From Nitrosomonas sp. (GTDB taxonomy: Bacteria > Pseudomonadota > Gammaproteobacteria > Burkholderiales > Nitrosomonadaceae): 64,000 nt of DNA. The notes under the pieces were generated by a model. That model was not told the origin of the DNA, ran no database searches, and was given only the letters and a program-made list of their open reading frames with translations. Positions 14,796 through 32,251 of the stretch are shown piece after piece. The position numbers and the translations under genes are program-made. Position 1 is the first letter of the stretch. Every line of letters starts with the position of its first letter. The stretch is taken from the NCBI GenBank assembly GCA_019635215.1, contig JAHBZZ010000008.1:1-64000 (forward strand), read 5' to 3'.

Positions 14796-15344
14796 TCAGG
14801 ACGATTGAGCGTCGGTTGCACGGTGTATCTTCTGGCGTGCCGGAATTGGTGCCAACGGGCCGTGACCATGACTATGATGATGGTGGTCATGATCGTGCGT
14901 ATGTCCGCCGTGATGATGTTCGCCTGTACTGTAAGCGCCTGATTCCGGCTCGAATTGTGCTTTTTCTTCAATTACTGTTGCACCGAGCCCTTCCAGCATT
15001 TCCTTCAATACACTATCCTGATAGATTCGTAGATAGCCATCCGCTACCTGGGTAACTGTATGACGGTTGCCTAAATGAAAAGCGCAACGCAGCAGATTGT
15101 GTGCTGAATTACACGTAATGCGGTACGTCGGTTCCTCAGCGGAAATAATTTGAACGACTTTACCGTCATCGCTGCTTAGCAAGTCGTTATTACGTAAAAT
15201 GGTGCCGCGTTGTGTAATAATGGCAACTTCCTCACCTGAAGCCAGTGCAGTTCGCAGGCGACTGTTCACACGTAACTCATAGGGTAAAACTAGCCACGCA
15301 TAGATTGAATCTGTGTGCGATACTTTCGCATTCAATATCAGCAT
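14796..15344 (-). CDS. ureE: Urease accessory protein UreE (nickel metallochaperone)
   Basis: 182 residues. UreE binds nickel and hands it to the UreG/UreF/UreD complex for the urease centre. The N-terminal domain (about 1-75) is followed by the peptide-binding-like metal domain with LLRCAFHLGNRHT, holding the conserved metal His, and a C-terminal His-rich tail (HHHGGHTHDHDHHHHSHGHG) that would store several nickel ions. AAAGGAAT precedes the start. It is split from ureDABCFG: it lies on the opposite strand, inside the metal-transporter operon, which supports a nickel role for that operon. Confidence 0.92.
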   Translation of the reverse strand: MLILNAKVSHTDSIYAWLVLPYELRVNSRLRTALASGEEVAIITQRGTILRNNDLLSSDDGKVVQIISAEEPTYRITCNSAHNLLRCAFHLGNRHTVTQVADGYLRIYQDSVLKEMLEGLGATVIEEKAQFEPESGAYSTGEHHHGGHTHDHDHHHHSHGHGPLAPIPARQKIHRATDAQSS

Positions 15345-16353: not shown

Positions 16354-17841
16354 ATGAAGTTGAGTTCCTTATGGATGTTCCCGGTATCCGGTATAAGCAA
16401 GCGTTGGTCAGAAAATATACAACGAGGGCACCCGTACCTAAGCGATGTATGTAAAAAACAACGGGAATTTCTTGGATGTCTTGTTTTATCTGCGACCGTA
16501 ATGCTTACGGGAACAGTTTACTCATCAGATACCCATGCGGAAATTTTTGGCGACAACGGCTTTAAAGCGGCTCCCGGCCATGATGAAACCGGGGGCGTCG
16601 GTGACCGGGAAAAACAGGATTGGTGGCTTCGTGGCAATGATTTCCAAACTAATCATTCCAAAATTGGCGATGTCAAAGTCGGGTTCGACAAATTTAAATT
16701 CCGAATGGAGTACGATGATTATCGGTGGTTAACCATTGGCGCCGGTTATCGAGGTTCCGGTGTGTGGGCGCAAAATGCACAGAACAATTACCGGGACCGT
16801 TACAGTAATGACAATGCCCGTATCTATGTCAATGGCCAGATTCATCGCTATATCAAGTTTGAGTTCAATACGGAATGTTTCTGGTGTAATAACACCGATA
16901 AAGGTGATAATCCGAAAATTCTTTTTACTGTACTCGATGCGGTTGGCAAGTTTGAATACAACCGCTATTTTAATGTCTGGGGCGGGCGTATGCTTGTTCC
17001 AACGGAACGGGGGGAATTGAGCGGTCCCTTCTATCAGGCTACGCACGACCCGTTCAAAACGCCTTTTTTCTCCAGCGATTTTAGTACGCATTTCGGCGCA
17101 GGCGGCGCAGGCCGCTACGGCCGTGACGACGGCGCTACATTCTGGGGTAGTTTGGAGCCCGGCTTTATTCCGGGAACCCTCGGTTATGCGGGCGGTATTT
17201 ACCGCGGATTGAGTTCCAAAAATAATCTTGGGCCCAATCAAACGGACGATGTCATGTGGGCGGGCCGTTTGACTTATAATTTTTTAAATCCCGAACAAAA
17301 TCCCGGTTACTACACAAGCCAGACTTATTACGGTAAAGCCGGCGATATTCTGGCGCTTGCATTCGGTTTCTCGTATCAAAAAAATGGCGCTGGTTCGTAC
17401 CTGCATAGCAGTGATTTTCTGGGTTGGGTGACGGATGCGGTCTTTGAGAAAGTGCTTCCCGATAATCTGGGTGTTCTTACCTTTAATGGGGAATATAAGA
17501 AATTTTATGCGAACTATGACAGGGCCGCATTTTCAGAGGGAAATTGTTTCTGCATATTTGACGGACAATCATGGACGGTCACCGGGCTCTATTTATTTCC
17601 AGTCAAAATTGGAATCGGTCAATTTCAACCCTACGGCCGGTTTACCAGCGTACAGCCCGACAACAGCAGTAACCGTGAAGAAATTGAAGGGGGGCTGAAT
17701 TATATTATTGATGGCTTTAATGCCCGGGTTTCAGCCTATTATCAATATGGCGATTTATTTACGAAAGGCTTGAATTATGCACCGGATGCCTTGGGAGAAA
17801 AGGTCAATGTGTTTAAACTGTCTTTCCAGATACAAATCTAG
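16354..17841 (+). CDS. Outer-membrane beta-barrel porin at the head of the urease locus
   Basis: 495 residues. A long basic N-terminal stretch precedes a hydrophobic signal segment (FLGCLVLSATVMLTGTVYSS, about 39-58). The rest alternates polar and aromatic residues as in barrels and ends with the typical C-terminal strand FKLSFQIQI. An ATG closer to the signal segment is not available in frame, so the n-region is unusually long. It is 64 bp before ureD. I suggest it passes urea or small amides across the outer membrane, similar in role to amide porins such as FmdC; this rests on position only. Confidence 0.75.
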   Translation: MKLSSLWMFPVSGISKRWSENIQRGHPYLSDVCKKQREFLGCLVLSATVMLTGTVYSSDTHAEIFGDNGFKAAPGHDETGGVGDREKQDWWLRGNDFQTNHSKIGDVKVGFDKFKFRMEYDDYRWLTIGAGYRGSGVWAQNAQNNYRDRYSNDNARIYVNGQIHRYIKFEFNTECFWCNNTDKGDNPKILFTVLDAVGKFEYNRYFNVWGGRMLVPTERGELSGPFYQATHDPFKTPFFSSDFSTHFGAGGAGRYGRDDGATFWGSLEPGFIPGTLGYAGGIYRGLSSKNNLGPNQTDDVMWAGRLTYNFLNPEQNPGYYTSQTYYGKAGDILALAFGFSYQKNGAGSYLHSSDFLGWVTDAVFEKVLPDNLGVLTFNGEYKKFYANYDRAAFSEGNCFCIFDGQSWTVTGLYLFPVKIGIGQFQPYGRFTSVQPDNSSNREEIEGGLNYIIDGFNARVSAYYQYGDLFTKGLNYAPDALGEKVNVFKLSFQIQI

Positions 17842-17905
17842 TCTTCGAAAAATGAATAGCATAGAAGGCGGCATGGAAGCTGATGCGATGAAGCACGTAT
17901 AAAAA

Positions 17906-18880
17906 ATGGCTATTTATCCAAATTTACAACACATTCCAGAAACAGAGGCTTTCGTTATTGACAAAATAAATAGCAGCAATCCCCCGGGTATCAGTGCGTC
18001 GTGGACAACCGGACAGGCACAACTCAAACCGGTGCAGAAAAACGCGGATATGAAACCGGATGCGAGCATATTTCTGGCGTTTGACAAAGATGCGGAAAAA
18101 TCCAGACTGGCTTTACGTCAGCATTTTGGACAACTTTATGTGCAGAAACCCTTTTATCCCGAGGGACCGGAAGTTTGTCATGTTGTATTGGTTCATCCAC
18201 CGGGTGGCGTTGTCGGCGGTGACAGGCTGGAAATTGCCCATCATGTCGGTGCCGATGCCAATGTGCAGGTAACGACACCGGGCGCTGCAAAATGGTATCG
18301 CTCCAATGGCCACATTTCGTATCAGCATGTCACACTTGACGTAAAAACAGGCGGCGTAATGGAATGGCTGCCGCAGGAAACCATTTTTTTTGACGACGCG
18401 CAGGTTGAATTGGTCCAGAATGTTAATCTGGAGAAACAATCAACCTATATCGGGTGTGAAATTTTTTGCTTTGGCCGCACCGCTCATGGTGAATCGTTTA
18501 ATTCGGGGCGGATCCGGCAAAGATTCAGCATACGCCGTGACGATAAATTAATCTGGTATGAACAACTTAATTTGCCTGGTGGCGGTAAAGCAATGCGTAG
18601 TCCGCTCATTCTGGCCAATAAAACGGTTTGCGCCACGCTGCTGGCCGTGAGCGATTCAATTCATTCCGGTGATTTAATCAATGCGCTGCGTAGCCAGGTG
18701 GCTGACGTCGACAATGGCGCCGGATTGCTGGGCGTTTCCCAGGTAAAGTCAGTGATTGTGGCGCGTTATTTAGGCACTTCCAGTGAAGTTGCGCGGGCAG
18801 TGATGTTAAAACTCTGGGGCGTTCTGCGTCCGGCTTTACTCGGGCGCGCAGCAATAGTGCCGCGCATGTGGAATACCTGA
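17906..18880 (+). CDS. ureD: Urease accessory protein UreD
   Basis: 324 residues. UreD binds apo-urease with UreF and UreG for nickel insertion. The family core starts near residue 75 (GQLYVQKPFYPEGPEVCHVV), followed by HPPGGVVGGDRLEI and TPGAAKWYRS. The N-terminal ~70 residues are longer than in many members. It leads the plus-strand order ureD-A-B-C-F-G. Confidence 0.93.
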   Translation: MAIYPNLQHIPETEAFVIDKINSSNPPGISASWTTGQAQLKPVQKNADMKPDASIFLAFDKDAEKSRLALRQHFGQLYVQKPFYPEGPEVCHVVLVHPPGGVVGGDRLEIAHHVGADANVQVTTPGAAKWYRSNGHISYQHVTLDVKTGGVMEWLPQETIFFDDAQVELVQNVNLEKQSTYIGCEIFCFGRTAHGESFNSGRIRQRFSIRRDDKLIWYEQLNLPGGGKAMRSPLILANKTVCATLLAVSDSIHSGDLINALRSQVADVDNGAGLLGVSQVKSVIVARYLGTSSEVARAVMLKLWGVLRPALLGRAAIVPRMWNT

Positions 18881-18939
18881 GTATCGGTATCACCACTTAG
18901 TTTATACAAATTCAGTAACCCAAATACAAGGAGGCAATC

Positions 18940-19242
18940 ATGGATCTAACCCCAAGAGAGAAAGATAAGCTGCAAATATTTACGGCGGGGCTGCTTGCGG
19001 AAAGGCGTAAAGCGCGCGGCGTGAAGCTGAATTATCCGGAAGCGGTTGCATTGATCACATGCGCTGTGCTGGAAGGGGCGCGTGACGGACGCACCGTCGC
19101 CGAACTCATGTCCGAAGGCGCGCGCATATTAACACGCGCGGATGTCATGGAAGGTGTACCTGAAATGATCCATGACATTCAGGTTGAAGCAACGTTTCCG
19201 GATGGCACCAAGTTGGTCACCGTTCATAACCCGATATCCTAA
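18940..19242 (+). CDS. ureA: Urease gamma subunit
   Basis: 100 residues, full length. Start [20 protein letters not shown] with a strong ribosome site AAGGAGG at 18929-18935. Conserved NYPEAVALI and [13 protein letters not shown] are present. It is the smallest of the three structural subunits; the alpha3 beta3 gamma3 enzyme hydrolyses urea to ammonia and carbamate. The ammonia would feed ammonia oxidation. Confidence 0.96.
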
Positions 19243-19267
19243 TCTTTTACAGCAGGAGAATATAACC

Positions 19268-19576
19268 ATGATCCCCGGAGAAACCATTATTGAGCCCGGT
19301 GAAATTGAACTGAATGCCGGCCGCAGAACCAAAACGATCCGTGTCGCCAATACGGGTGACCGGCCCGTGCAGGTGGGTTCGCATTTTCATTTTTTTGAAG
19401 TGAATTCCGCACTGAATTTTGACCGACAGGAAGCCTACGGTATGCGATTAAATATTATGGCAGGCACTGCGATCCGCTTTGAACCGGGACAGGAACGCAC
19501 TGTCGAGCTCGTTGATCTGGCAGGGAGCAGAATAGTCTATGGATTCAACCAAAAAGTTATGGGCCCGCTTGTTTAA
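19268..19576 (+). CDS. ureB: Urease beta subunit
   Basis: 102 residues from the ATG at 19268 ([20 protein letters not shown]), behind CAGGAGAA; an in-frame upstream ATG at 19172 lies inside ureA and is less likely. Conserved [17 protein letters not shown] and AYGMRLNI are present. It lies 25 bp after ureA, with ureC 55 bp on. Confidence 0.96.
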
Positions 19577-19631
19577 TCGCTCTGGCGATAAGCAACAACC
19601 ACAGGATAAACAATCAGAGGGAGCAGAGAAA

Positions 19632-21338
19632 ATGAGCTTTAAGATTTCGCGTCAGGCATACGCTGAAATGATGGGACCAACAACCGGGGACAGAGTTCGC
19701 TTGGCGGATACTGAGCTGTTCATCGAAATTGAAAACGATTACACCATTTACGGCGAGGAAGTCAAATTCGGTGGCGGCAAGGTCATTCGCGACGGTATGG
19801 GGCAATCGCAGCGCAATCACGCGGATGTCATGGACACCGTCATTACTAATGCCATTATCATCGATCACTGGGGTATTGTGAAAGCAGACGTCGGTCTGAA
19901 AAACGGCAGAATCGCCGCTATCGGCAAATCCGGGAATCCTGACATACAACCGGGCGTCACGATGGCGATCGGCGCCGCCACAGAAATCATTGCCGGTGAA
20001 GGTCAGATTCTGACGGCAGGTGGACTGGACGCGCATATTCACTTTATCTGTCCGCAGCAGGGAGAAGATGCCCTGATGAACGGCATCACCACAATGCTGG
20101 GCGGCGGCACCGGCCCGGCTGTTGGTACGCTGGCGACAACCTGTACACCAGGTCCGTGGCATATACATTCAATGCTGCGCGCTTCCGACGGCATGGTCAT
20201 GAATACTGGTTTTTTTGGTAAGGGAAATGTCAGTTTGCCGATCCCGAACGAAGAGCAGGTTTTAGCCGGCGCTTGCGGTTTGAAACTGCATGAAGACTGG
20301 GGTACGACCTATGCGGCAATTGATAATTGCCTGACTGTCGCCGACAAACTGGATGTGCAGGTTGCGATTCATACCGACACGATTAACGAAGGCGGCTACC
20401 TGGAAAATACCATCAAAGCCATGAAGGATAGAACAATCCATACCTTCCATACGGAAGGTGCGGGTGGCGGGCACGCGCCGGATATCATGAAAGTCGTTGA
20501 ACTGGATAATGTATTGCCTTCGTCGACTAACCCGACACGTCCCTATACGCGTAATACACTCGACGAACATCTGGATATGCTCATGGTTTGTCATCATTTA
20601 AGCCCGTCTATTCCTGAGGATGTCGCCTTTGCCGAGTCCCGGATACGCAAGGAAACCATTGCAGCCGAGGACATCTTGCACGACATTGGCGCCATTTCCA
20701 TGATGTCATCAGACTCACAGGCGATGGGGCGTATCGGCGAAGTGGTGACCCGGACATGGCAGACGGCGCATAAGATGAAGGTGCAACGTGGTGCACTCAA
20801 AGAAGATTCGGCAAGAAACGATAATTTTAGGGTTAAACGTTATATCGCGAAATATACGATTAACCCGGCGATATGCCATGGCATTTCTCACGCGGTGGGA
20901 TCGGTCGAGGTCGGAAAATATGCCGATCTGGTACTGTGGCGGCCTGCGCATTTCGGCGCTAAACCCTCAATGGTGTTGAAGGGTGGCATGATCGCCGCTG
21001 CGCTGATGGGCGATCCGAATGCATCGATTCCGACACCGCAGCCCGTTCACTATCGGTATATGTTTGGGGCATACGGCACTGCGCTCCGGAATACCTGTTA
21101 CACGTTTGTATCGGCAGCGTCTTTGGCGGCTGGTCTGGCTGACCATCTTAAAGCCGACAAACCATTGATCGCGGTTAAAAACACGCGCGGTCTGCGTAAA
21201 AAGGACATGATTCATAACGGCGCAACGCCAAAAATGGAAATCAATCCTGAAACCTATGAAGTGCGCGCTGACGGCGAACTGTTGGTCTGTGAACCGGCGG
21301 ATACGCTTCCATTGGCGCAGCGTTACTTTTTATTCTGA
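19632..21338 (+). CDS. ureC: Urease alpha subunit (catalytic)
   Basis: 568 residues from the ATG at 19632, where the family start [20 protein letters not shown] begins; a longer frame from 19539 overlaps ureB. The nickel site is complete: His135 and His137 (DAHIHFI), the Lys to be carbamylated in [12 protein letters not shown], His in IHTDTINEG and [11 protein letters not shown], Asp in SSDSQAMGR, and the flap Cys-His in MVCHHLSPS. All residues needed for activity are visible, so this is a working urease by sequence. Confidence 0.97.
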
Positions 21339-21361
21339 AGACAAGTCGCCAGCGCTTTGCA

Positions 21362-21394
21362 GTAAAAGGAAGATTGTATAAGTCTTCCTTTTAC
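21362..21394 (+). other. Perfect 12-bp hairpin between ureC and ureF
   Basis: GTAAAAGGAAGA and TCTTCCTTTTAC flank a 9-base loop, 24 bp after the ureC stop. No T-run follows, so it is probably not a strong terminator. It may stabilise the ureDABC messenger or weaken read-through into ureFG, which would fit less need for accessory proteins. Confidence 0.5.
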
Positions 21395-21530
21395 GGGGAG
21401 TACGTTAGAAGTAGCGTCTTTAACCATATGAGAAAGTTGAAAAAATAATTTTAACGCAGGGGATTCGATGCTTTCGCCATCAGTATAAAGAAGCACCGGT
21501 GAATCATGTCCGCTTATTGCCCGTGAAAAA

Positions 21531-22220
21531 ATGACTGGTATACAACAAATCACTGAGTTATTACGTTTGCTTCATCTGGCCAGTCCATCGCTGCCGATCG
21601 GTGCTTATACTTATTCGCAGGGACTGGAAGCGGCAATAGAAACCGGTAATGTTACAAACGAAGAGTCTGCGCAGGCTTGGATTAAAGAATCCTTATCCGT
21701 TATTGCCGATTTTGAAGCGCCAATTTTCTGGCGCCTGCTGCAAGCCCTTTCAAATCATAATGAGCCGGATGTGACGTATTGGACGGAACTGTTTCTGGCA
21801 GCCCGCGACACGCATGAATTCCGTGCCGAAACGATTCAGATGGGTTATTCACTCAATAAACTGATACTCGATTTGAATATCGCGGATGAGTCATTGCGGA
21901 TGATCATGGCAAATCAGGCGGAGATTCCTCTGCCGACTGCATTTGCCTGTGCGGCTGTGGCATTGAAGATTTCCCCTGATGCCGCTTTATCAGGGTTTTT
22001 GTTTTCAATCGTCGAAAATCAGGTGCTCGTGTGCGTAAAATCCGTGCCCCTTGGGCAAGTTTCAGGACAACGTTTACTACTTTCTCTGCATCCGGATATA
22101 GAGACAACGGTCAATCATGCCAAGCAGCTTGAAGATGATGCGCTTTCCAATTGGTCACCGGGTTTATCGATTTTGTCAATGATGCATGAAATACAATACA
22201 GTCGGATTTATCGATCTTAA
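21531..22220 (+). CDS. ureF: Urease accessory protein UreF
   Basis: 229 residues, usual length, mostly helical. Family start LLRLLHLASPSLPIGAYTYS followed by QGLEAAIE, and a C-terminal half with the conserved PLGQVSGQRLL. It works with UreD and UreG on apo-urease. It lies 25 bp before ureG. Confidence 0.94.
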   Translation: MTGIQQITELLRLLHLASPSLPIGAYTYSQGLEAAIETGNVTNEESAQAWIKESLSVIADFEAPIFWRLLQALSNHNEPDVTYWTELFLAARDTHEFRAETIQMGYSLNKLILDLNIADESLRMIMANQAEIPLPTAFACAAVALKISPDAALSGFLFSIVENQVLVCVKSVPLGQVSGQRLLLSLHPDIETTVNHAKQLEDDALSNWSPGLSILSMMHEIQYSRIYRS

Positions 22221-22245
22221 TTAAAACAATTACACGGGATATAAC

Positions 22246-22875
22246 ATGACACATCAATCAAATCCACTCCGTGTCGGCATAGGTGGGCCGGTTGGTTCCG
22301 GCAAAACCGCGCTATGTGAAGCACTGAGCAAAAAAATGCGCGACCGTTACGAAATGGCGGTGATCACCAACGATATATATACCAAGGAAGATCTGGAAAT
22401 ATTACTGCGCGCGGAGGCTTTGCCGGCAGAACGGTTGGTTGGTGTTGAAACCGGCGGTTGCCCGCATACTGCCATCAGAGAGGATGCATCCATTAATCTT
22501 GAGGCCATTGCCCGCATTACCCAGGAATTTCCCAATCTCGATCTGGTGCTGGTTGAATCCGGTGGTGACAATCTGGCTTCAACATTCAGTCCGGAATTAT
22601 CCGATCTGACTATATACGTTATTGATGTTGCCGCTGGAGAAAAAATACCCCGGAAGGGTGGACCGGGAATTACACGATCCGCTTTACTGGTAGTTAATAA
22701 AATTGATCTGGCGCCGTATGTCGGCGCCGATCTGGAGGTAATGGCGCGCGATGCCAAGCGGATGCGCGGTGACCGGCCATTCGTTTTTACCAATTTGCGT
22801 ACCGGCCAGGGCGTACAGGAAATTATCGATTTTATTGTCAAGCAAGGATTGCTTGAAGAAATGAAAGCGCATTAA
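22246..22875 (+). CDS. ureG: Urease accessory GTPase UreG
   Basis: 209 residues. P-loop [11 protein letters not shown] (about 13-23), [15 protein letters not shown], the nickel-binding Cys-Pro-His in [15 protein letters not shown], and the guanine motif [13 protein letters not shown] hydrolysis drives nickel insertion. All motifs are intact. Confidence 0.96.
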
Positions 22876-22932
22876 TTCTTGACAGAAAACTGGGGTAAAA
22901 GAATTTAATCGAACATGATCCGGAGATAAAAA

Positions 22933-23913
22933 ATGCAATGGGCAATAAAACTAGACATGGCTATTCCACGGCCAATTCGAGTAATCCTGCGAGGTGTGGG
23001 TCAAGTATTTTTTTGCGGTAATGCCATTACAGGATTGATTTTTTTAATTGCGCTTTATGTCGGCGGCATAACCGCCGGACTTGCGGCCACCGTTGGTGTT
23101 GTAGCCAGTACCATTACAGCGTATGTACTGGGGTTCTCAGAAGATGACATTGATGCAGGGCTCTATGGTTTTAACGGAACACTGGTGGGTCCCTGTCTGT
23201 TTCTATTTCTCGAAAATACGCCTTTGCTGTGGGTATACGTCGTATTCGCTTCCATACTGTCAAGTGTGGTCCTGGCAGCCCTGATACGGATTCTGATACC
23301 CTATAAGATACCCGCTTCGACATCACCCTTTGTTCTGACTTGCTGGATGTTCATGATTGCCGTGTATTCATTTGACAGTCTTACGCGCGGCCCCGTGCTG
23401 CCCGCGCCCGGCATCCCCGAAGCGATTGCGGGTACTGATCTACCGGCGACAGCCTGGCTGTCCATGGCAAATGAAACGACTGAACTGTGGTATGTGGCGC
23501 TGACAAAGGGCATTGCTGAAGTCATGTTTGCGGATAATGTCCTGGTCGGCATTTTATTTCTGACCGGCATCGCGATCACCTCATGGCGAGGCGCTGTTAT
23601 GGCGCTTTGCGGTACATTTGTCGGTGTGACGGTACCTGTACTGCTCGGTGCAAGTCAGAATCTAATAGAAATGGGGTTATACGCATTTAATCCCGTATTA
23701 ACCATGATGGCCATTGGCTGGGTTTTTCTCAAACCTTCCGCCGGTACAGCCCTTCTGGCGCTGCTGGCAGGCATTCTGACCGTGATTTGCCAGGCCGGTT
23801 TGGCCAATTTCTTAGCGCCAGCCGGTCTACCCACGCTGACATTTCCATTCGTATTGACGATGTGGATGTTTTTATTTGCAGCAAGTATGTCAAAACACTG
23901 GTCATCGCAATAA
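22933..23913 (+). CDS. Urea channel, UT family (inner membrane)
   Basis: 326 residues, about ten membrane helices in two similar halves: each starts with a related stretch (GQVFFCGNAITGLIFLIALY near residue 26 and EVMFADNVLVGILFLTGIAI near residue 199), and each has a T-x-PF motif (TSPFVLTCWMF, LTFPFVLTMWMF). This duplicated fold is that of UT-type urea channels. It follows ureG by 57 bp, so urea entry and hydrolysis are encoded together. Confidence 0.9.
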   Translation: MQWAIKLDMAIPRPIRVILRGVGQVFFCGNAITGLIFLIALYVGGITAGLAATVGVVASTITAYVLGFSEDDIDAGLYGFNGTLVGPCLFLFLENTPLLWVYVVFASILSSVVLAALIRILIPYKIPASTSPFVLTCWMFMIAVYSFDSLTRGPVLPAPGIPEAIAGTDLPATAWLSMANETTELWYVALTKGIAEVMFADNVLVGILFLTGIAITSWRGAVMALCGTFVGVTVPVLLGASQNLIEMGLYAFNPVLTMMAIGWVFLKPSAGTALLALLAGILTVICQAGLANFLAPAGLPTLTFPFVLTMWMFLFAASMSKHWSSQ

Positions 23914-23916
23914 ATC

Positions 23917-24699
23917 ATGGAGTCACAAGGGATGATGCAAAATACTGAAAAGATGATAAAGGCAGGAACCTATAAGACTCAGCAAAGGCGCTTATTGCTG
24001 AAAATGCTGGCAGCGTTTCCGCTTGGCCTGGCTTTGCCGGCTGTAAGCGCGGCAAACACAATGTCCGGCATGGTCAAAATTCCGCCCATTCCGGAGAATA
24101 TATTGAGTCCGGAAGCAGCGCTTGAACGTCTCATGAAAGGGAATGAGCGTTATGTCACCAACCAATCAACACCGCTGAATTTTAAGGATGAACGCCTGGA
24201 TTTGGTCAGGGGACAAAATCCCTTTGCCTGCATTCTCAGTTGTTCGGATTCCCGGGTGAGTCCGGAATTCTGTTTTGATGAGCAACGCGGCGACTTGTTT
24301 GTAGCGCGCGTTGCGGGCAACTATATTACAACGGATTTTATCGCGACACTGGAATACGCTGCCGCTGTTTTACATGTCCCATTGATCATGGTTCTGGGGC
24401 ATGAGGGTTGCGGTGCGATTCAGGCGGCGATTGACGCAACCGATAATTATGAACAATTTCCGGGGCATATTCAGACAATCGCCACAGCTTTGACCCCGGC
24501 GGTCAGGGCCGTTCGCAGGACGCCGGATTATGTGGCGAGTAACCGGTATTTTGAGGTTGTTGAAAAGAATGTCATTCTTAATGTCGAAGAACTCAGGAAA
24601 CAACCCCCTATTTTAAGCCGGTTGGTGGACAACAAAAAACTCATGATTGTCGGTGGGGTATATCATTTAAAAACCGGGAAAGTTGAATTGATTTCATAG
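23917..24699 (+). CDS. Beta-class carbonic anhydrase, probably exported by Tat
   Basis: 260 residues. Zinc ligands Cys109 (in LSCSDSRV), His162 and Cys165 (GHEGCG) and the Asp111-Arg113 dyad are in place. Ahead of the domain is a signal with twin Arg (QQRRLLLKMLAAFPLGLALP, then AVSAAN), so it is likely periplasmic. It begins 3 bp after the urea channel. It may interconvert CO2 and bicarbonate beside the channel, using CO2 from urea or supplying carbon for fixation; the role is inferred. Confidence 0.9.
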   Translation: MESQGMMQNTEKMIKAGTYKTQQRRLLLKMLAAFPLGLALPAVSAANTMSGMVKIPPIPENILSPEAALERLMKGNERYVTNQSTPLNFKDERLDLVRGQNPFACILSCSDSRVSPEFCFDEQRGDLFVARVAGNYITTDFIATLEYAAAVLHVPLIMVLGHEGCGAIQAAIDATDNYEQFPGHIQTIATALTPAVRAVRRTPDYVASNRYFEVVEKNVILNVEELRKQPPILSRLVDNKKLMIVGGVYHLKTGKVELIS

Positions 24700-24768
24700 G
24701 GGATGCCGCAAAAGATCAATTCTTTCATCGCAGATTCATATTTTACTAACTGACTTGCCAAACCGAAA

Positions 24769-27477
24769 ATGCTGATTCGATATATTCCAACAAAGCGTTC
24801 CATATTCTTTTTGCTGACTACGCTGTTTGCGCTGGGTCTGTTTGTGACGCTTTTGTCTCCCGTCATTTCACCACTTTCATTCAATTTTCATTTTAATGAA
24901 GACTGGAGTGAAGGGTTTCAGCATCCATTAACAGGTTGGGATCATATTCTCGTCATGGTGGCAGTCGGTATCTGGGCGGCTCAGATACGCGGGCAGGCGC
25001 TGTGGATATTGCCTATTGTCTTTGTCGGCGTCATGAGTGTTGGCGGCCTGGTCGGTGCTGCGAGTTTTATTATTCCAGGCGCAGAAGTCGTGATTCTTTT
25101 GTCGTGTCTCGTAATCAGCGCCTTGATTGTGCGCGGACTACGGTTCAGCACACCGGTCAATATCATCATTATTTCACTGTTTGCTTTTTTTCATGGCTAC
25201 GTACATGGGCAGGAAATATCCGCATCCGCCAGCCTTGCTTCTTATACTGCCGGTTTTATGTTGGCCACGTTACTTCTGCACGGCACTGGTATATTGATTT
25301 CCAGGCTTACTGTGCTGGCGGTTACCTTCTTTATCAGCACAAGCATTCATGCCCAGGAAAAAACCCAGCATACAAATACCACTAAACCCGATTTAAAAAT
25401 TGACCAATTGGCGCATGTTGTCCTGGATGAGGTGAAGGTTACCGGGCGCGCGGACAAATTAACCGGCATAGCCGATAGCGCCTCACAAGGCAAGGTGGGG
25501 CAGGACCAGATCCAATATCGGCCGATGATCCGGCCCGGCGAAATACTTGAAACGGTACCCGGTTTGATCGCCACCCAGCATAGTGGTGAAGGCAAGGCGA
25601 ACCAGTTTTTCTTGCGCGGTTTCAACCTGGATCATGGCACCGATTTCCTGACCCAGATTGAGGGCGTACCGATTAATCAGCTTTCGCATGCGCACGGCCA
25701 GGGGTGGACGGATGCCAATTTTCTGATTCCTGAACTTGTCGAATCGATTGATTTCCGGAAGGGTAATTATTTTGCCGATACAGGTGATTTTTCCAGCGCC
25801 GGATCAGCCAATATCCGCTATGTTAACCGCCTACCTGAAAATCTGTTCCGATTTACCGGCGGCAGTTTTGATTACTATCGCGGGTTGGTAGCCGGATCGA
25901 GTCAGCTATTGAAAGGCGATGTTTTATATGCCGGAGAGGTTGTGCATAATGACGGCCCCTGGGATGTCGGCAACAATTATCTGAAATTCAACGGCCTGCT
26001 TCGCTACAACCGTGAATATGGCAATCACAGCTGGCGTATTACGGCCATGGCGACACATTCCGACTGGCGGGCGACCGATCAAATTCCAAGACGTGCGCTG
26101 CAGCAAGGTCTTGTCGGCCGGTTCGGCGCACTGGACCCGACCGATGGCGGGAACAGTCATCGTTACAGTCTGACCGCCGACTGGCGTATGCGCGGTGAAA
26201 ACAGCATAACGTCTGTCATGGCGTACGGTATTTATTCCAAGCTGGATCTTTTTTCAAATTTTTCTTTTTTTCTGGATGATAACGAGATGACCAACCCTGC
26301 AGGATGCGCAGGATTACGCGGATTATCGTCCGGAAACCGGGTTTCTCCAGCATTATTCCGAACCTGTGGCGATCAGTTCGGTCAGCCGGATGAACGCTGG
26401 ACGACCGGTTTTACAGCCAGCCATACGCTGTTTCACAAAATCGGCGCATTCGATGCTGAAACGACATTGGGGGTTCAGCTGCGCAACGATAATATTCAAA
26501 ACGCGCTGACTAAAACCCATGCGCAAAAAACGGCTGGCATTACCCGCCAGGATACGGTCTGGGTGACCAGCATCAGCCCCTATCTTGAAAACAGGATACA
26601 TTGGCAGAAATGGCTGCGCACAACCCTGGGCGTACGTTTTGACGGCTTCCGTTTTGATAACAGCCGCAGCAATATTCAGCAAAACAATGGTACGCGTTAC
26701 GACGGTTTGGTCAGCCCGAAACTGAGTATCGTTTTTGGTCCCTGGGCGGATACCGAGCTTTATTTGAACGGCGGGCTCGGTTTCCACAGCAATGATGCCC
26801 GCGGGATCAATACCCGCATCGATCCGGCAAGCGGAGATGCCGTCGATCGTGCCGATCCGCTTGCGCGCACATACAGTGCTGAAACCGGTATCCGCTCGAC
26901 CTGGGTTCCGGGGCTGCAAAGCACGTTAACCGTCTGGTGGATGGATCTTGAATCCGAACTGGTCTTTGTGGGGGATGCGGGTACTACCGAAGCAAGCCGG
27001 CCCAGCCGGCGGTACGGACTCGAATTCACCAACTATTACCAGCCGGTGCACTGGCTGACATTTGACGCCGATTTCAGTTTTTCTCACTCGCGTTTTCGCG
27101 ATACGGTTGCCGGCGAAGGCGATCATGTGCCCAACGCTGTAGAAGCAGTCATTGCAACGGGTGCGACATTTCATGATGTTTTTGGTGGTTTCTATGGCGG
27201 CCCCAGGTTGCGGTATCTCGGGCCGCGTGCACTGAATGAGGACAATTCCAGCCGGTCGAATGGCACCATTCTGCTGTCGGCAATGCTGGGATATGAGATC
27301 AGCAAATCGTTACGTATCCAAGGCGAAGTGTTCAATATTCTGAACCGCAAGGATGATGCGATCACGTATTTTTATACCTCACGCCTGCCGGGAGAATCTT
27401 TGGCGGGCATGGATGATTATCATTTTCATCCGGTCGAACCGGTAAGTTTCCGGATAGGATTTATTCTTAATTACTAA
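24769..27477 (+). CDS. HupE/UreJ nickel permease fused in frame to a TonB-dependent receptor
   Basis: 902 residues without a stop. Residues 1-180 are HupE/UreJ-like: several membrane helices with HPLTGWDHILVMVAVG (52-67) and HGYVHGQE (142-149), the family's metal motifs. Residues 180-195 (RLTVLAVTFFISTSIHA) look like the signal peptide of a receptor, with cleavage expected after Ala195. From about 200 on it is a TonB-dependent receptor: TonB-box-like LDEVKVTGRA, plug with PGEILETVPGLIATQHSGEG and FFLRGFNLDHGTDF, and a barrel ending VSFRIGFILNY. Inner-membrane and outer-membrane proteins cannot stay as one chain in the usual way, so cleavage by signal peptidase (a polyprotein) or an internal start is likely. 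Next to urease, nickel is the probable substrate. It could be a recent deletion fusion. Confidence 0.85.
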   Translation: MLIRYIPTKRSIFFLLTTLFALGLFVTLLSPVISPLSFNFHFNEDWSEGFQHPLTGWDHILVMVAVGIWAAQIRGQALWILPIVFVGVMSVGGLVGAASFIIPGAEVVILLSCLVISALIVRGLRFSTPVNIIIISLFAFFHGYVHGQEISASASLASYTAGFMLATLLLHGTGILISRLTVLAVTFFISTSIHAQEKTQHTNTTKPDLKIDQLAHVVLDEVKVTGRADKLTGIADSASQGKVGQDQIQYRPMIRPGEILETVPGLIATQHSGEGKANQFFLRGFNLDHGTDFLTQIEGVPINQLSHAHGQGWTDANFLIPELVESIDFRKGNYFADTGDFSSAGSANIRYVNRLPENLFRFTGGSFDYYRGLVAGSSQLLKGDVLYAGEVVHNDGPWDVGNNYLKFNGLLRYNREYGNHSWRITAMATHSDWRATDQIPRRALQQGLVGRFGALDPTDGGNSHRYSLTADWRMRGENSITSVMAYGIYSKLDLFSNFSFFLDDNEMTNPAGCAGLRGLSSGNRVSPALFRTCGDQFGQPDERWTTGFTASHTLFHKIGAFDAETTLGVQLRNDNIQNALTKTHAQKTAGITRQDTVWVTSISPYLENRIHWQKWLRTTLGVRFDGFRFDNSRSNIQQNNGTRYDGLVSPKLSIVFGPWADTELYLNGGLGFHSNDARGINTRIDPASGDAVDRADPLARTYSAETGIRSTWVPGLQSTLTVWWMDLESELVFVGDAGTTEASRPSRRYGLEFTNYYQPVHWLTFDADFSFSHSRFRDTVAGEGDHVPNAVEAVIATGATFHDVFGGFYGGPRLRYLGPRALNEDNSSRSNGTILLSAMLGYEISKSLRIQGEVFNILNRKDDAITYFYTSRLPGESLAGMDDYHFHPVEPVSFRIGFILNY

Positions 27478-27507
27478 TTGGTTGAAATCCATTGGCTTTA
27501 TTATCGT

Positions 27508-27594
27508 TTAACTGATTGGGTATATCGGTAGATGCCGTTCTAGCAATTCCCTAACCTTGTATGATATGTCATGTCTGCGATGTGCTCGTGTCAT
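27508..27594 (-). mobile_element. N-terminal relic of an IS5-type transposase
   Basis: An ATG at 27594 with ribosome site AAAGGAGGA reads MTRAHRRHDISYKVRELLER and stops after 28 residues. This resembles the N-terminus of IS5-group transposases (RRHDISDKVWELLEPHLP). The rest of the transposase is missing. It is debris within the gap after the receptor gene; the gap (27478-27797) holds nothing else I recognise. Confidence 0.6.
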
Positions 27595-27797
27595 ATGAAA
27601 TCCTCCTTTCTTATAAGGATCTCGTATTTCTTGTCTCGTGACTACATTGTCGAGATGATTGAAAGACGGGTTAAGCAATTCCAGGTTTAATCCGTTAGTG
27701 CTGGGAACCACATGGTAAATTTATCTTTAAAGGTAAAACTGAACAATGAGCACATTAATGACAGATCCGGCACTATTTGCCGGACGGGTTGCTGAAG

Positions 27798-28916
27798 ATG
27801 AGCAGCGGAAAAAAATTTATCAACATTCTGGTCACGAATCGAATTACTTATGATGGCCAAATAAGACAAGTCTATAAGATCTGGTTACTCAATATACTGA
27901 TGAATATCATTACATTGGGTATTTACAGTTTCTGGGGAAAAACACGGATGCGTCAATATGTCGTAGGTGCATTTGTGCTGCATAAAGACCGATTTGAATA
28001 TACCGGAACGGGTAAAGAGCTATTTTTTGGATTTCTGAAAGCTATACCCGTCTTTCTTGCACTTTATCTTCCTTTTATGATTGCATCGTTTGTCGATCCC
28101 GAGGCGGTTTGGCCGATGGTGTTTTTGATTCCATTTCTCTATGTATTTCCCGTTGCGTTATATTCCGCATTCCGTTATCGGATAAGCCGTACACAATGGC
28201 GGAGTATTCGTTTTGGTCTCGAGGGGTCAGTCATGAAATATGCCAATCTTTATCTCTGGAGATGGCTGATCAATATTGTGTCATTGGGTGTTTTAATTCC
28301 ATATTCTGATATCAGAAGATATCGCTATATTGCCGATAACGCCTATTTTGGCGATATTTTGTTTCGTTTCGAAGGACGCGGCAAAGATCTTATGACGACT
28401 CATCTGGCAACTTATTCGATGGGGATTGGTTTTCTCATGATCGCTTTTTATGGCCTGCAACTTATGGCTACATTCTTTTCGATGATACAAGTGACCATGG
28501 AGGAACAGGCACTGTCAACGGAAGAAGCTTTACTAATTTTTGGCGATTCGTCGTTTATTGTTGCATTGGCTTGTGTCATTCTTCCATTTATCATGGTTCC
28601 CATAGTCCGGTTGATTTATAAAACGGCCTTAATCCATGAGATGACCAATCACTTATATGCTGGTGAAATTGGTTTCAGAAGTACTGTTACGACTTTAGCA
28701 CTGATGAGACTCAAACTGGTCAATGTTTTGATTATGATCTGTACGCTCGGTCTGGGTTTGCCTTATATCATGCAGCGAAATGTGCGTTTCTTCGCGCAGC
28801 ATACGCAAGTGAGGGGTGATCTGGAAACTATCGGTATCAAGCAAGCCACTGGTCGTAAGCCTACCGATGCTGAAGGCCTGCATGAAGTAATGGGTCTGGA
28901 ATCGGGATTGATTTAG
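27798..28916 (+). CDS. DUF898 (YjgN-family) membrane protein
   Basis: About 372 residues from the ATG at 27798; a TTG at 27777 is possible. Two repeated halves, each with YxG-x-FKIW-like and TLGIYSFWGKTRMRQY / SLGVLIPYSDIRRYRY stretches, typical of DUF898, plus TGTGKELFFGFLKA. About six to eight helices. Function unknown. It overlaps the M48 protease gene by one base (TAGTG), and this pair occurs together in other proteobacteria, suggesting a shared envelope role. Confidence 0.85.
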   Translation: MSSGKKFINILVTNRITYDGQIRQVYKIWLLNILMNIITLGIYSFWGKTRMRQYVVGAFVLHKDRFEYTGTGKELFFGFLKAIPVFLALYLPFMIASFVDPEAVWPMVFLIPFLYVFPVALYSAFRYRISRTQWRSIRFGLEGSVMKYANLYLWRWLINIVSLGVLIPYSDIRRYRYIADNAYFGDILFRFEGRGKDLMTTHLATYSMGIGFLMIAFYGLQLMATFFSMIQVTMEEQALSTEEALLIFGDSSFIVALACVILPFIMVPIVRLIYKTALIHEMTNHLYAGEIGFRSTVTTLALMRLKLVNVLIMICTLGLGLPYIMQRNVRFFAQHTQVRGDLETIGIKQATGRKPTDAEGLHEVMGLESGLI

Positions 28917-30028
28917 TGTCATTCATTTCTTTCGAGGCCAGGTTTTTTGATGGTGAAACGGCAAAACCGCATCAGGTCGATGTCGAGTTATATGCGGCAT
29001 GTTTGCGTATCAGAACAGCGGATAATTCGTTTACAAAAGACTGGCTGTATAAGGAAATAAAAGTCCTGGAACAGCCTGTTCCGCCGCAGCCAGCCAGACT
29101 GACTGTCCATAGAAATACGGGCATGCGGTTATATGTCGAACCCAAATACTGGCCTGTACTTAAATCAAAGCTTCCCAGAACAGCTTTTCGAAAAATAACA
29201 CTTTCTATGCACTGGAAGTTTTTATCGGGTTATGCTGGATTGGCTATGGTTTTTATTTTTGGCGTTGTATTTATCGGACCCAAATTGTTTGAGCAAGTAA
29301 GTGGCCTGATACCGCAAAGCGTTGAAACAAAAATGGGTAAAATGGTGCTTGAATCGTCCATCAGTAATCCGATTTGTACTGCGCCAAAAGGACAGGCTGC
29401 ACTGGAAAAAATGGCGCATAACCTGAAACAAGGTATGACACGCGATATTCCATTGAATGTGCGTATTGTTTCAGATGATGAGACGCTTAATGCCCTGGCT
29501 GCGCCAGGCGGATATCTTGTTATTTTCAGCGGTATCTTGAAGCATGCAGATGCTGCAGAAGAAGTGGCTGGTGTGCTGGCCCATGAAATGGCGCATATTG
29601 AGATGAATCACCCGATGAAATCGTTAATGCGTAATCTGGGCGTTACTTTTATGTTGCAAATGATGTTCGGTGACGCGGGTGCCATCAGTAATACGGCACA
29701 ATTCGCCGGGATAATCAATCAACTCCATTATAGTCGTGAGGATGAATTGGAGGCTGATAGTGTTGGCCATACTTTGCTCGAAAAAGCCAATATCGACCCT
29801 TCAGGTCTGACGGTTTTTTTCGAACGGCTTAAACAGATGGAAGCAAAAATTAACGGTCACTCTAACACTCAGTGGGCCAATTTCAGTAAATATTTTTCAA
29901 CACACCCTCTTATAGAGCAACGTATCAATAAGCTAAGAAAAAATGAATCAAATTCAATAGCCTATCCAAAAGCATTGGATGCCGCGGAATGGCAGGCACT
30001 CAAAAATATCTGTTCTGAATCAGATTAG
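28916..30028 (+). CDS. M48-family membrane metalloprotease
   Basis: 370 residues from a GTG that overlaps the previous stop. One membrane helix at about 102-122 (FLSGYAGLAMVFIFGVVFIG). The peptidase domain has the zinc motif HEMAH (in VLAHEMAHIEMNHP) and the third ligand Glu in SREDELEADSVG. It should cleave membrane or periplasmic proteins, like BepA/HtpX relatives. The N-terminal ~90 residues are a domain I do not recognise. Coupled to the DUF898 gene. Confidence 0.88.
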   Translation: MSFISFEARFFDGETAKPHQVDVELYAACLRIRTADNSFTKDWLYKEIKVLEQPVPPQPARLTVHRNTGMRLYVEPKYWPVLKSKLPRTAFRKITLSMHWKFLSGYAGLAMVFIFGVVFIGPKLFEQVSGLIPQSVETKMGKMVLESSISNPICTAPKGQAALEKMAHNLKQGMTRDIPLNVRIVSDDETLNALAAPGGYLVIFSGILKHADAAEEVAGVLAHEMAHIEMNHPMKSLMRNLGVTFMLQMMFGDAGAISNTAQFAGIINQLHYSREDELEADSVGHTLLEKANIDPSGLTVFFERLKQMEAKINGHSNTQWANFSKYFSTHPLIEQRINKLRKNESNSIAYPKALDAAEWQALKNICSESD

Positions 30029-30200
30029 TATATGCGATCTTATTGCAGCATGAGTATACGATCATAGCTTCGCCGGGAACGGTTCTGATTCAATCGATAA
30101 ACATCAATTTTTCAAATATCTGTTTCTCAGGCTTTTGCAACGCGACTGTCGATTTTTGTTACAGGATAAAATAAAAACTTGCATTCTGATAAGCGTCAAG

Positions 30201-30219
30201 TATAATAAGAATCATTCTC
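30201..30219 (+). promoter_or_regulatory. Fur box upstream of hemP
   Basis: TATAATAAGAATCATTCTC matches 15 of 19 positions of the E. coli Fur consensus, 24 bp before the hemP start. It implies repression by Fur with iron. Confidence 0.7.
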
Positions 30220-30242
30220 ATTTATGTTTTTAGGATATCGAT

Positions 30243-30440
30243 ATGCGCCATTTTGTTACTAAGATACAAGCATCTACGGTTCATTGTCTCGAAAAACGCT
30301 TACCTGTAGCGTCTGATCAGAGTTCGGTGTTGGATAGTGATGCTCTGTTTACGAATAATGCAGTGGTGTTCATAATGCATCATGGTGAACGTTATCTGCT
30401 GCGCCGCACACGCAATGATAAGCTGATATTGACCAAATAA
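30243..30440 (+). CDS. hemP: Hemin uptake protein HemP/HmuP
   Basis: 65 residues. The C-terminal half has the family pattern (LFTNNAVVFIMHHGERYLLR, then RTRNDKLILTK). HemP/HmuP proteins are small and act as activators or accessories of heme uptake, usually before a heme receptor gene. Here no receptor follows; the next gene runs the other way. Control by Fur is likely from the box at 30201-30219. Confidence 0.87.
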   Translation: MRHFVTKIQASTVHCLEKRLPVASDQSSVLDSDALFTNNAVVFIMHHGERYLLRRTRNDKLILTK

Positions 30441-30665
30441 GCAGAATTTGATTTTGTTGCCGTTGGTTTTACTCTCTTTTGTCCACGGCATTATTGCCAG
30501 CCAGCCTGATCCTCCCCAGGCAAGCCAGCGCTTTTTTTAATAGTCATTAGAAATGATTGATGGATAAATCCTTTCAGGTATTTACCTTTAATCTAGAACA
30601 TTGCTCGAAGTTCGGGCAAATTGTATTCTCCATATTCAAACCATTCTTACCAGGATTTTGGTGCA

Positions 30666-31172
30666 TCAGATTATTCTACTGTCATAAGCCCAGTTTAATA
30701 ACGCTTGCCGTTGCCGTTTCCGGCAGTTGAGATCACCGTTCAGGCAGTTTTTCCTGATTTGCGCCGCATGGCGTTTTATGGCTTTCCAGCGCTTGATTTG
30801 CCGTGTATCGTCGGAACATCTTCGACCCATATAGTAGCGGCAATACCATTGAAACCAACCTCTCGGATCATCCGCATAGATCCAGCCTTTTTCGCGCCAC
30901 GCGGACAGAGACTGGGAAGCATTGACACCGAAGAAATTCAAAGCGGGGTCATGAATTTCATGGCATAACCGTGCATGGGTAAACCAGTCTTCAGGAAATT
31001 CATTGATGCAATCTGTCATGTATTTTCCGCCAAAGACACCCATGCGCAGCATTTGTTTCGGTGTCAATGCAGGTGTAAATTCCGCATGAAAATTTTTTCC
31101 CATCGGTTCAGTCAGATGATAACTATAATCATGTTGCATGAGATCATTCACGACGATTTTCTTTTTTATCAT
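30666..31172 (-). CDS. Conserved hypothetical protein
   Basis: 168 residues, soluble, no signal. It is rich in Trp and Arg, with WREKGWIYADDPRGWFQWYC and RRCSDDTRQIKRW, and five Cys. I have an impression of similar proteins in other proteobacteria and fungi but know no function. A fair candidate for a nucleic-acid-binding protein from its basic C-terminus; that is a guess. Confidence 0.75.
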   Translation of the reverse strand: MIKKKIVVNDLMQHDYSYHLTEPMGKNFHAEFTPALTPKQMLRMGVFGGKYMTDCINEFPEDWFTHARLCHEIHDPALNFFGVNASQSLSAWREKGWIYADDPRGWFQWYCRYYMGRRCSDDTRQIKRWKAIKRHAAQIRKNCLNGDLNCRKRQRQALLNWAYDSRII

Positions 31173-31591
31173 GATTTACGTGTTAAATAACGACTACTAA
31201 CAATCAAAGACTTCAATATGCCGAAGCATATTAATGTCCGGTTCAAAAGCTTTTTTTGTCACAACGGATTTTTCTTTAGAGCCTGCTTATAATCTCGATC
31301 AAGAGGTGCAGCGTAAGGCAAAATGAAACGACGCAAGCAAGGCGCCTGTGCCGAGTAAAAAGCGGGGCATATGAAGTATGTGCGCATTTTGAGTTCGATT
31401 TTAACGCAGCAATATGCCCTTCAGTGAGATCATGAACAGTTCTTAAAAAACACCGGATATGGCAGTATAGCGATTTTTCACCAGTGACAATGTCATAGCC
31501 ACGTTTTTTCAGGTATCACGAATTTGAATGGAATCAAACGCTCAGTCTTTAATCGTTATAAACAGAAGAGAATAATAAGGATATTCCCAAT
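31173..31591. other. Intergenic region before exbB
   Basis: No gene found. The stretch about 31280-31440 is less AT-rich than its flanks and may be a repeat relic; I could not find a second copy in the window. Confidence 0.45.
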
Positions 31592-32251
31592 ATGGAGTCA
31601 TTTATGGAACATCTCAACCAAGCCTGGATCATGTTAAAACTGGGTGGAGTCATTATCATCCCGCTGTCGCTGCTCGGTATTATCGCGCTTGCAATTATGC
31701 TTGAGAAAGCGTTTATTTACTGGCGGTTTGCCCGCCTTTCGCGCGATTTGTCCAATCTGATCGAGACTTACGGTTTCAAATGGGAGGATCTGGAGAAAAT
31801 ACTGTCCGGACTGGACGATCGTCATTATTACAAGCGTTTCTTTGAAGTGGTGATTGCCAATCGGAATCAACCGTCCTGGTGGACGGAATCGCGTGCTGCG
31901 GATGAGGCCCAGTTGATCGAAGAGTCGTTGGCGCGCAGACTCTGGGCGTTGGAAACCATCGTTACCGCTGCGCCGCTACTTGGGTTGGTGGGGACGGTTA
32001 TCGGTATGATGCGCGCCTTTCAGGTGATCGGCAGCGAAGGCATTGTTAATCCAACCGCGGTAACCGGCGGGGTAGCCGAAGCACTCATTGCAACGGTGAT
32101 CGGATTAATCATCGCACTGGTAGCGCTGTTCGGATTCAATTATTTTTCCCGCCTGCAATCACAGACTATGGATGAAATGGAACGACTGGGCACGCGCCTG
32201 ATTGATCATATCCGTCTGGATCAAAAGGAAGCAATTCATGAAACTGCGTAA
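31592..32251 (+). CDS. exbB: ExbB/TolQ-family proton channel subunit
   Basis: 219 residues, three membrane helices (about 17-36, 122-145, 168-187). The MotA/TolQ/ExbB signature is APLLGLVGTVIGMMRAFQVI followed by GGVAEALIATVIGLIIAL. With ExbD and TonB it turns proton flow into energy for outer-membrane receptors, such as the receptor at 24769-27477. The stop overlaps the exbD start by 14 bp. Confidence 0.93.
   Translation: MESFMEHLNQAWIMLKLGGVIIIPLSLLGIIALAIMLEKAFIYWRFARLSRDLSNLIETYGFKWEDLEKILSGLDDRHYYKRFFEVVIANRNQPSWWTESRAADEAQLIEESLARRLWALETIVTAAPLLGLVGTVIGMMRAFQVIGSEGIVNPTAVTGGVAEALIATVIGLIIALVALFGFNYFSRLQSQTMDEMERLGTRLIDHIRLDQKEAIHETA

Follow-up and report, generated by a model that had tools for sequence, protein, structure and literature searches.

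The fused gene and its joint

The window analysed here is a 64,000-nucleotide stretch of a Nitrosomonas sp. genome (contig JAHBZZ010000008.1, positions 1 to 64,000). At 24769-27477 on the plus strand, closing a urease operon, it contains a gene that is open from its ATG to its TAA and encodes 902 amino acids. This gene joins a HupE/UreJ permease, a signal-peptide-like segment and a complete TonB-dependent receptor in one stop-free frame. An earlier, sequence-only reading had proposed this arrangement, and the 902-codon frame and Pfam domains above their cut-offs confirm it. The permease motifs that it named (HPLTGWDH and HGYVHGQE) and the residue at which it expected cleavage (Ala195) are also correct.

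The N-terminal hydrophobic helix at residues 10-33 (24796-24867), which appears in the AlphaFold2 model and the hydropathy profile, is the putative membrane or signal segment of the HupE half. It is followed by the permease core at residues 45-181 (24901-25311), where HupE_UreJ (PF04955) matches with 139.4 bits (cut-off 23) over profile positions 21-157 of 179. Residues H52, D58, H59, H142, H146 and E149 are invariant in 24 fusions and also in 72 HupE rows, and we take them to be the conserved metal-ligand motifs of HupE. The joint at residues 179-195 (25303-25353) combines the last helix of the permease with an internal signal peptide, for which a cut is predicted after Ala195. Residues 196-226 (25354-25446) would form an exported linker and include a TonB-box-like stretch. 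Constraint is weak over residues 196-220, and the predicted local distance difference test score (pLDDT) is below 50 over residues 181-224. The plug domain lies at residues 242-345 (25492-25803; Pfam Plug, 47.4 bits, cut-off 23.9). The beta-barrel extends over residues 346-902 (25804-27474), with a Pfam TonB-dependent barrel match at residues 430-857 (86.5 bits, cut-off 27) and strands in the AlphaFold2 model. Confidence in the full model lies mainly in the receptor. In Foldseek searches the receptor half is similar to PqqU, FecA and OprC, and its matches span iron, pyrroloquinoline quinone (PQQ), cobalamin and copper receptors. A phmmer search of the receptor half against solved structures and a fold search with the HupE half each return no match at E up to 0.001.

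The joint was compared in 28 aligned fusion rows, which include several near-copies and are not independent. Position -1 is Ala in 27 of the 28 rows and Gly in L097. Position -3 is Val, Ile, Ala or Leu in every row, and position +1 is Gln in 23. This -3/-1 pattern is the rule for signal peptidase I, and the joint follows it as an internal signal sequence. The signal-peptide-like site ending at Ala195, as first described from the window, is therefore conserved across the alignment. The receptor of the fusion has no N-terminal signal peptide of its own; the signal-like segment is internal and begins after 178 permease residues. All nine standalone relatives of the receptor that were viewed have their own signal-like stretch at the start.

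The joint replaces the sixth helix of HupE, a feature that the sequence-only reading missed. PMC4284471 describes HupE as a protein of six helices. At the position of the joint, standalone HupE proteins have an extra, longer loop together with a different last helix, which indicates that the segment in the fusion stands in place of helix six. The Pfam match ends near position 157 of 179 in the fusions, compared with 176-179 in the 19 strongest standalone HupE proteins of the genus. The family's own last helix is therefore missing from the fused permease, and the last helix present is of another type. In 26 of the 28 fusions (L067 and L100 left out), 103 Lys and Arg residues fall in the 12 columns predicted to be inside and 13 in the 36 predicted to be outside. 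With these residues on the predicted cytoplasmic side, the receptor would be placed outside the inner membrane, in the periplasm.

Distribution, selection and history

The fusion, which the sequence-only reading proposed to look for in other ammonia oxidisers, is present in 14 of 85 Nitrosomonas genomes, the window's own included. In 12 of the 85 the HupE match lies within a frame of 769-960 amino acids, and G079 has two such frames. In G084 and G086 the frame enters the receptor and then leaves the contig. The G028 fusion starts within a run of N and has a truncated receptor, and the G010 frame begins at a contig end.

A wider contig scan used the fusion as the query, and its best 80 matches represent 79 loci. 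Among the matches listed, at least 21 loci have both parts in one frame. Eight of the 21 are named Nitrosomonas and were omitted as repeats of genomes already counted, which leaves at least 13 new contigs. Eight of these belong to Methylococcales: Methyloglobulus (two), Ca. Methylobacter oryzae, Methylomicrobium RS1 and four others. The other five are two Gammaproteobacteria metagenome-assembled genomes (MAGs), one contig filed only as bacterium, and MAG contigs filed as Verrucomicrobiia and Marinimicrobia, for which binning errors are possible. The Marinimicrobia-filed contig (L100) contains the fusion as a 241 amino acid piece only. Nitrosomonas oligotropha Nm75 (L087) also carries the fusion. 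Over 23 other full-length or nearly full-length copies, identity to the window's fusion is 44-87%.

In evenly drawn samples the fusion is rare. In the phylum sample (397 genomes), the window's gene is the only strong HupE match, among the matches listed, to end near position 157 within a long frame. Seven other long HupE frames of this sample (448-871 amino acids, among the frames listed) have no such receptor by tblastn. In the class sample (369 genomes), both halves are matched in two genomes, the window's own included, and the HupE half only in a third. No report of a HupE-TonB receptor fusion, or of an inner-to-outer-membrane precursor of this kind, was found in a literature search that did not reach most subscription papers and is no proof of absence.

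Both halves of the gene are under purifying selection. In 11 pairs of Nitrosomonas fusions, the finite values of the ratio of nonsynonymous to synonymous substitution rates (dN/dS) range over 0.06-0.13 for the HupE core, 0.02-0.10 for the plug and 0.03-0.10 for the barrel. Over linker residues 196-220, seven pairs have ratios of 0.20-0.81 and one has a ratio of zero, while for three the ratio could not be computed.

In a quick HupE tree built from few columns, in which 44 of 94 inner branches are open, the fused HupE sequences group with long-tailed methanotroph HupE in one starred clade of 74 rows. The ordinary Nitrosomonas HupE sequences are placed apart. In a quick receptor tree, 22 of 25 fusions and 19 standalone receptors form one starred clade of 41 rows. 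The fusions in L094, L095 and L121 have a receptor of another subfamily, which suggests that fusion, splitting or receptor exchange has happened more than once. The two copies in G079, one in a urease operon and one beside the copper-type module described below, are identical at 921 of 921 bases over residues 196-500 and at 32 of 90 over residues 1-30. This identity behind differing 5' ends suggests a recent gene conversion or duplication between them.

Several loci contain remnants of the gene. The copy in G016 (L077) is decayed, with both halves and internal stops, in a genome without a ureC match. In G002, which is not counted above, ureG, yut and the carbonic anhydrase gene are followed by the first HupE residues at a contig end. 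In G026 (L066, around base 6636, reverse strand) the HupE half is lost, the genome has no HupE match, and the receptor is nested within the fusion clade of the receptor tree. Its signal-like stretch is not in frame with the 692 amino acid receptor stretch, and in the latter no start codon precedes residue 32. The possibility that the gene had split naturally here, leaving a functional free receptor, was rejected because the frames differ; the gene is broken or misread there and supports none of the readings discussed below.

Genomic settings, cargo and processing

Four of the fusions close a urease operon: those of the window, G100 and G078, and one of the two G079 copies. In the window, ureD, ureA, ureB, ureC, ureF and ureG occupy 17906-22875 on the plus strand. 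UreA, UreB, UreC and UreF have Pfam matches; ureD and ureG are assigned with the help of the conserved gene order. On the same strand follow a Yut-type urea transporter (22933-23913; TIGR03441 above cut-off) and a beta-carbonic anhydrase (23917-24699; Pfam Pro_CA) with an N-terminal signal-like stretch in its sequence. Near the N-terminus of the anhydrase is RRLLLKMLAAFPLGLALPAVSAA, which resembles a twin-arginine signal, and the enzyme may act in the periplasm. A match to UreE, the nickel chaperone of urease, lies upstream of the urease genes on the other strand (14877-15134, minus). At L172 an open frame with a His-rich tail, presumably of the UreE type, lies between ureC and ureF. In positions 17000-32000 of the window, the only Rfam match is inside the urease genes: a 5' ureB small RNA match at 19784-20070 on the minus strand (115.9 bits, gathering score 40), antisense to ureC. 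It may merely reflect conserved coding sequence.

Fusions are frequently found away from urease operons too, beside a copper-type module, and they occur in methanotrophs; the sequence-only reading missed both points. The module consists of genes for a thioredoxin-like protein, a BNR propeller with a CSCC motif, CopC and a PmoD-like protein (profile match E=1.8e-6). It is located at L062:4969-8003, with equivalents in L063, L064, L065, L068, L069, L071, L073, L086, L089 and L092. The fusion of N. oligotropha Nm75 is a module-linked copy. At L089 the contig ends after CopC, before the fourth gene, and in G010 the BNR gene is split over two frames. Two of the 28 fusions are cut by contig ends, and 11 are in neither setting within the stretch examined, which is short in some cases. 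Just upstream of the fused gene in the module-linked loci L065, L068 and L069 is a perfect inverted repeat, GTGACAAATTGCC / GGCAATTTGTCAC. It is not seen in the 69 bases ahead of the window's fused gene.

Nickel is the best-supported cargo, as the sequence-only reading had suggested, and the receptor's relatives and the distribution of NikR make it the probable cargo of the window's gene. The receptor matches 288 plasmid records, and five of the best were viewed. In three of the five, nikR adjoins the receptor gene, and one of these three also has hoxN. In the fourth, hoxN lies 4.4 kb from the receptor, beside a nickel hydrogenase; in the fifth, the receptor is about 3 kb from cobalamin genes. 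The nikR-hoxN-linked receptor of Paraburkholderia acidisoli has 42% identity over 80% of the query. NikR occurs at 14 of 16 examined loci of standalone Nitrosomonas receptors and beside a tailed HupE at six methanotroph loci, with Pfam confirmation at L124 only. Among the Nitrosomonas genomes, NikR is present in 43 of 50 with urease versus 2 of 35 without. The fusion lies in the urease operon in four of the seven urease-bearing genomes without NikR, versus none of the 43 with it (p=1.5e-4, ignoring kinship). This pattern reads as displacement, in which the fusion took over the supply of nickel in genomes that had lost NikR and its receptor. The window's genome has no NikR. It also lacks NicO and CbiM permeases and any second HupE (NikABCDE was not searched for), which gives weak support, since some urease-bearing relatives likewise lack HupE and NicO. 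As a further clue to cargo, metal riboswitches were sought in 16 of the 79 loci, with no Rfam match at the gathering score.

From the computed frame, conservation, selection, joint motif and NikR exclusion, we infer the cleavage, the topology and the metal of the following scheme. The gene would encode a conserved precursor, or polyprotein, for both membrane steps of metal uptake. The HupE permease would be translated first, and its last helix would double as the receptor's signal peptide. Signal peptidase I would then cut after Ala195, and the signal segment would be retained as the sixth transmembrane helix of the permease. The freed receptor would fold into the outer membrane and import a metal chelate by TonB energy, so that the inner- and outer-membrane steps would be made one to one. 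In the window the metal would be nickel for the urease encoded directly upstream, and the fusion would have replaced the NikR-linked nickel receptor retained at the urease locus in many other Nitrosomonas. Cleavage after Ala195 by signal peptidase is likely, and slightly more so than the nickel cargo. The two together have somewhat better than an even chance.

Several observations weigh against this scheme. The four genomes with a urease-operon fusion and no NikR look like close kin, and two of the other three urease-bearing genomes without NikR are incomplete (G004, 75%; G094, 90%). Urease-bearing relatives with neither HupE nor NicO exist, for example G035 and G006. In 11 of the 28 fusions (8 Nitrosomonas and 3 methanotroph) the gene is followed by the copper-type module instead of being set with urease. 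Presence of the fusion goes more closely with the BNR gene than with ureC. Close BNR relatives (E below 1e-90) are found in 10 of 14 genomes with the fusion versus 5 of 71 others (Fisher p 7e-7, ignoring kinship), and ureC in 12 of 14 versus 38 of 71 (Fisher p 0.036, ignoring kinship). No ureC was found in the fusion genomes G015 (87% complete) and G097. At the joint, residue 179 ahead of the helix is Arg in 22 rows, Lys in one, Trp in four and Gln in one (n=28), so that Arg179 is not universal. In an AlphaFold2 model of the HupE half (mean pLDDT 84), residues 156-201 form one long helix with good confidence and no hairpin, and in the full model the joint has a pLDDT below 50.

The alternative that survives best keeps the same processing and makes the cargo copper, or several metals. 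The gene would then be part of a set that supplies copper in ammonia and methane oxidisers, from which the urease operon would merely have borrowed it. The four module genes behind the fusion in both groups of organisms favour this, as do the PmoD-like match and the G079 copies, near-identical in both settings. PMC6189053 describes PmoD as a copper protein found specifically in methane and ammonia oxidisers. However, the receptor's relatives are NikR-linked, and nickel and cobalt are the known metals of the HupE family (PMC2667541). The BNR, CopC and PmoD-like genes occur without the fusion in four genomes (G013, G081, G095 and G102) and also behind the broken G026 receptor, and the BNR gene of the module is missing from the window's genome. 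The copper receptor model TIGR01778 is not among the fusion's six NCBIfam matches up to E=0.001. The nickel genes near the receptor's kin and the NikR pattern demote copper as the main cargo, and this alternative is rather unlikely.

Less likely again is a chain that is, at least sometimes, left uncut. The TonB receptor would then be tied covalently through its N-terminus to the permease, as a single-polypeptide trans-envelope importer. The modelled helix over residues 156-201, which runs past Ala195, is consistent with such a chain. However, the cleavage-site positions are conserved, whereas the linker that follows differs among the fusions in both sequence and length, with 27-54 residues from the cut to the plug. 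The periplasm is about 20 nm wide, and such a linker is short for it in the shortest cases.

An internal translation start, which the sequence-only reading had offered as another explanation, would yield both proteins separately from the single frame. Most of the 15 Nitrosomonas fusions scanned have in-frame GTG or TTG codons, and one (L075) an ATG, within or close to the joint. Their positions are not conserved, however, and none of these fusions has a start codon with a Shine-Dalgarno-like motif at the joint. The only such pair nearby is a GTG in L063, which lies downstream of the cleavage site. The scan used a simple motif that could miss unusual starts, and it left out the 13 non-Nitrosomonas fusions. 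On this evidence an internal start is improbable, slightly more so than an uncut chain.

Still less probable is that the HupE half is no longer a permease and merely puts the receptor into the export path. The replaced last helix could be read in this way, but the core has a dN/dS of about 0.1 and its six candidate ligand residues are invariant. A recent deletion fusion or a sequencing error, the former also raised by the sequence-only reading, could be read from the rarity of the gene, the sole strong match of its kind among those listed in the phylum sample, but is refuted by the frame shared by 27 other rows, the identity kept in 23 other copies and the purifying selection.

If cleavage is true, the precursor would supply the outer and inner steps of metal import from one gene at a fixed ratio, with a signal peptide that also serves as one of a transporter's structural helices. 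The gene would further provide a clean system in which to study internal signals within multi-spanning proteins. Such processing would suggest a nickel route for some urease-bearing nitrifiers without NikR and would mark a metal-supply trait common to ammonia and methane oxidisers.

Comparison with known systems

The fused permease resembles HupE/UreJ permeases (PF04955) in its Pfam match, far above the cut-off, and in its H-x5-DH and FHGxxHGxE motifs, which are predicted to lie on the periplasmic side. It differs in that a signal-peptide-like segment replaces the sixth helix and the preceding loop, and the C-terminus continues into the receptor.

The fused receptor can be compared with the NikR-linked TonB-dependent nickel receptors of P. 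acidisoli (nikR-hoxN) and of Nitrosomonas urease loci, with about 42-51% identity in the matched stretches. Both have a plug, a barrel and nickel-gene neighbours. Unlike the fusion, these receptors are separate genes with their own start and signal-like stretch, and the window's genome has no NikR.

The tailed HupE proteins of Methylococcales belong to the same HupE clade and have the same shortened loop between transmembrane helices 5 and 6 (TM5-TM6) as the fusion. For example, one is encoded at L102:7427-8899, and others lie within L103-L160. At these loci a receptor gene lies downstream, and nikR lies upstream in six. Unlike the fusion, they consist of two genes, with a tail of roughly 100-300 amino acids between permease and receptor. 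No Pfam match above cut-off is found in five scanned tails. An exact GVGLTSPP motif is present in 18 of 44 frames (three of them cut fusions) that were selected with a simple pattern. As a guess, the tailed HupE could be a nascent-chain sensor of the CutF/CruR type.

The CrtA copper receptors with a CruR leader (PMC12914433 and PMC9426467) are likewise TonB receptors for a chelated transition metal that adjoin the gene of an inner-membrane partner. In CrtA systems the partner is PepSY_TM, encoded by a separate gene, and the available part of PMC12914433 does not mention HupE. With OprC-type copper receptors (TIGR01778) the fusion shares a general fold likeness only.

The closest precedent known to us is the Bradyrhizobium FbcH cytochrome b-c1 precursor. 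FbcH combines an inner-membrane protein and an exported protein in one chain that is cut at an internal signal sequence. Both of its products are found at the inner membrane, whereas the receptor of the fusion would go to the outer membrane, and the two systems differ in function.

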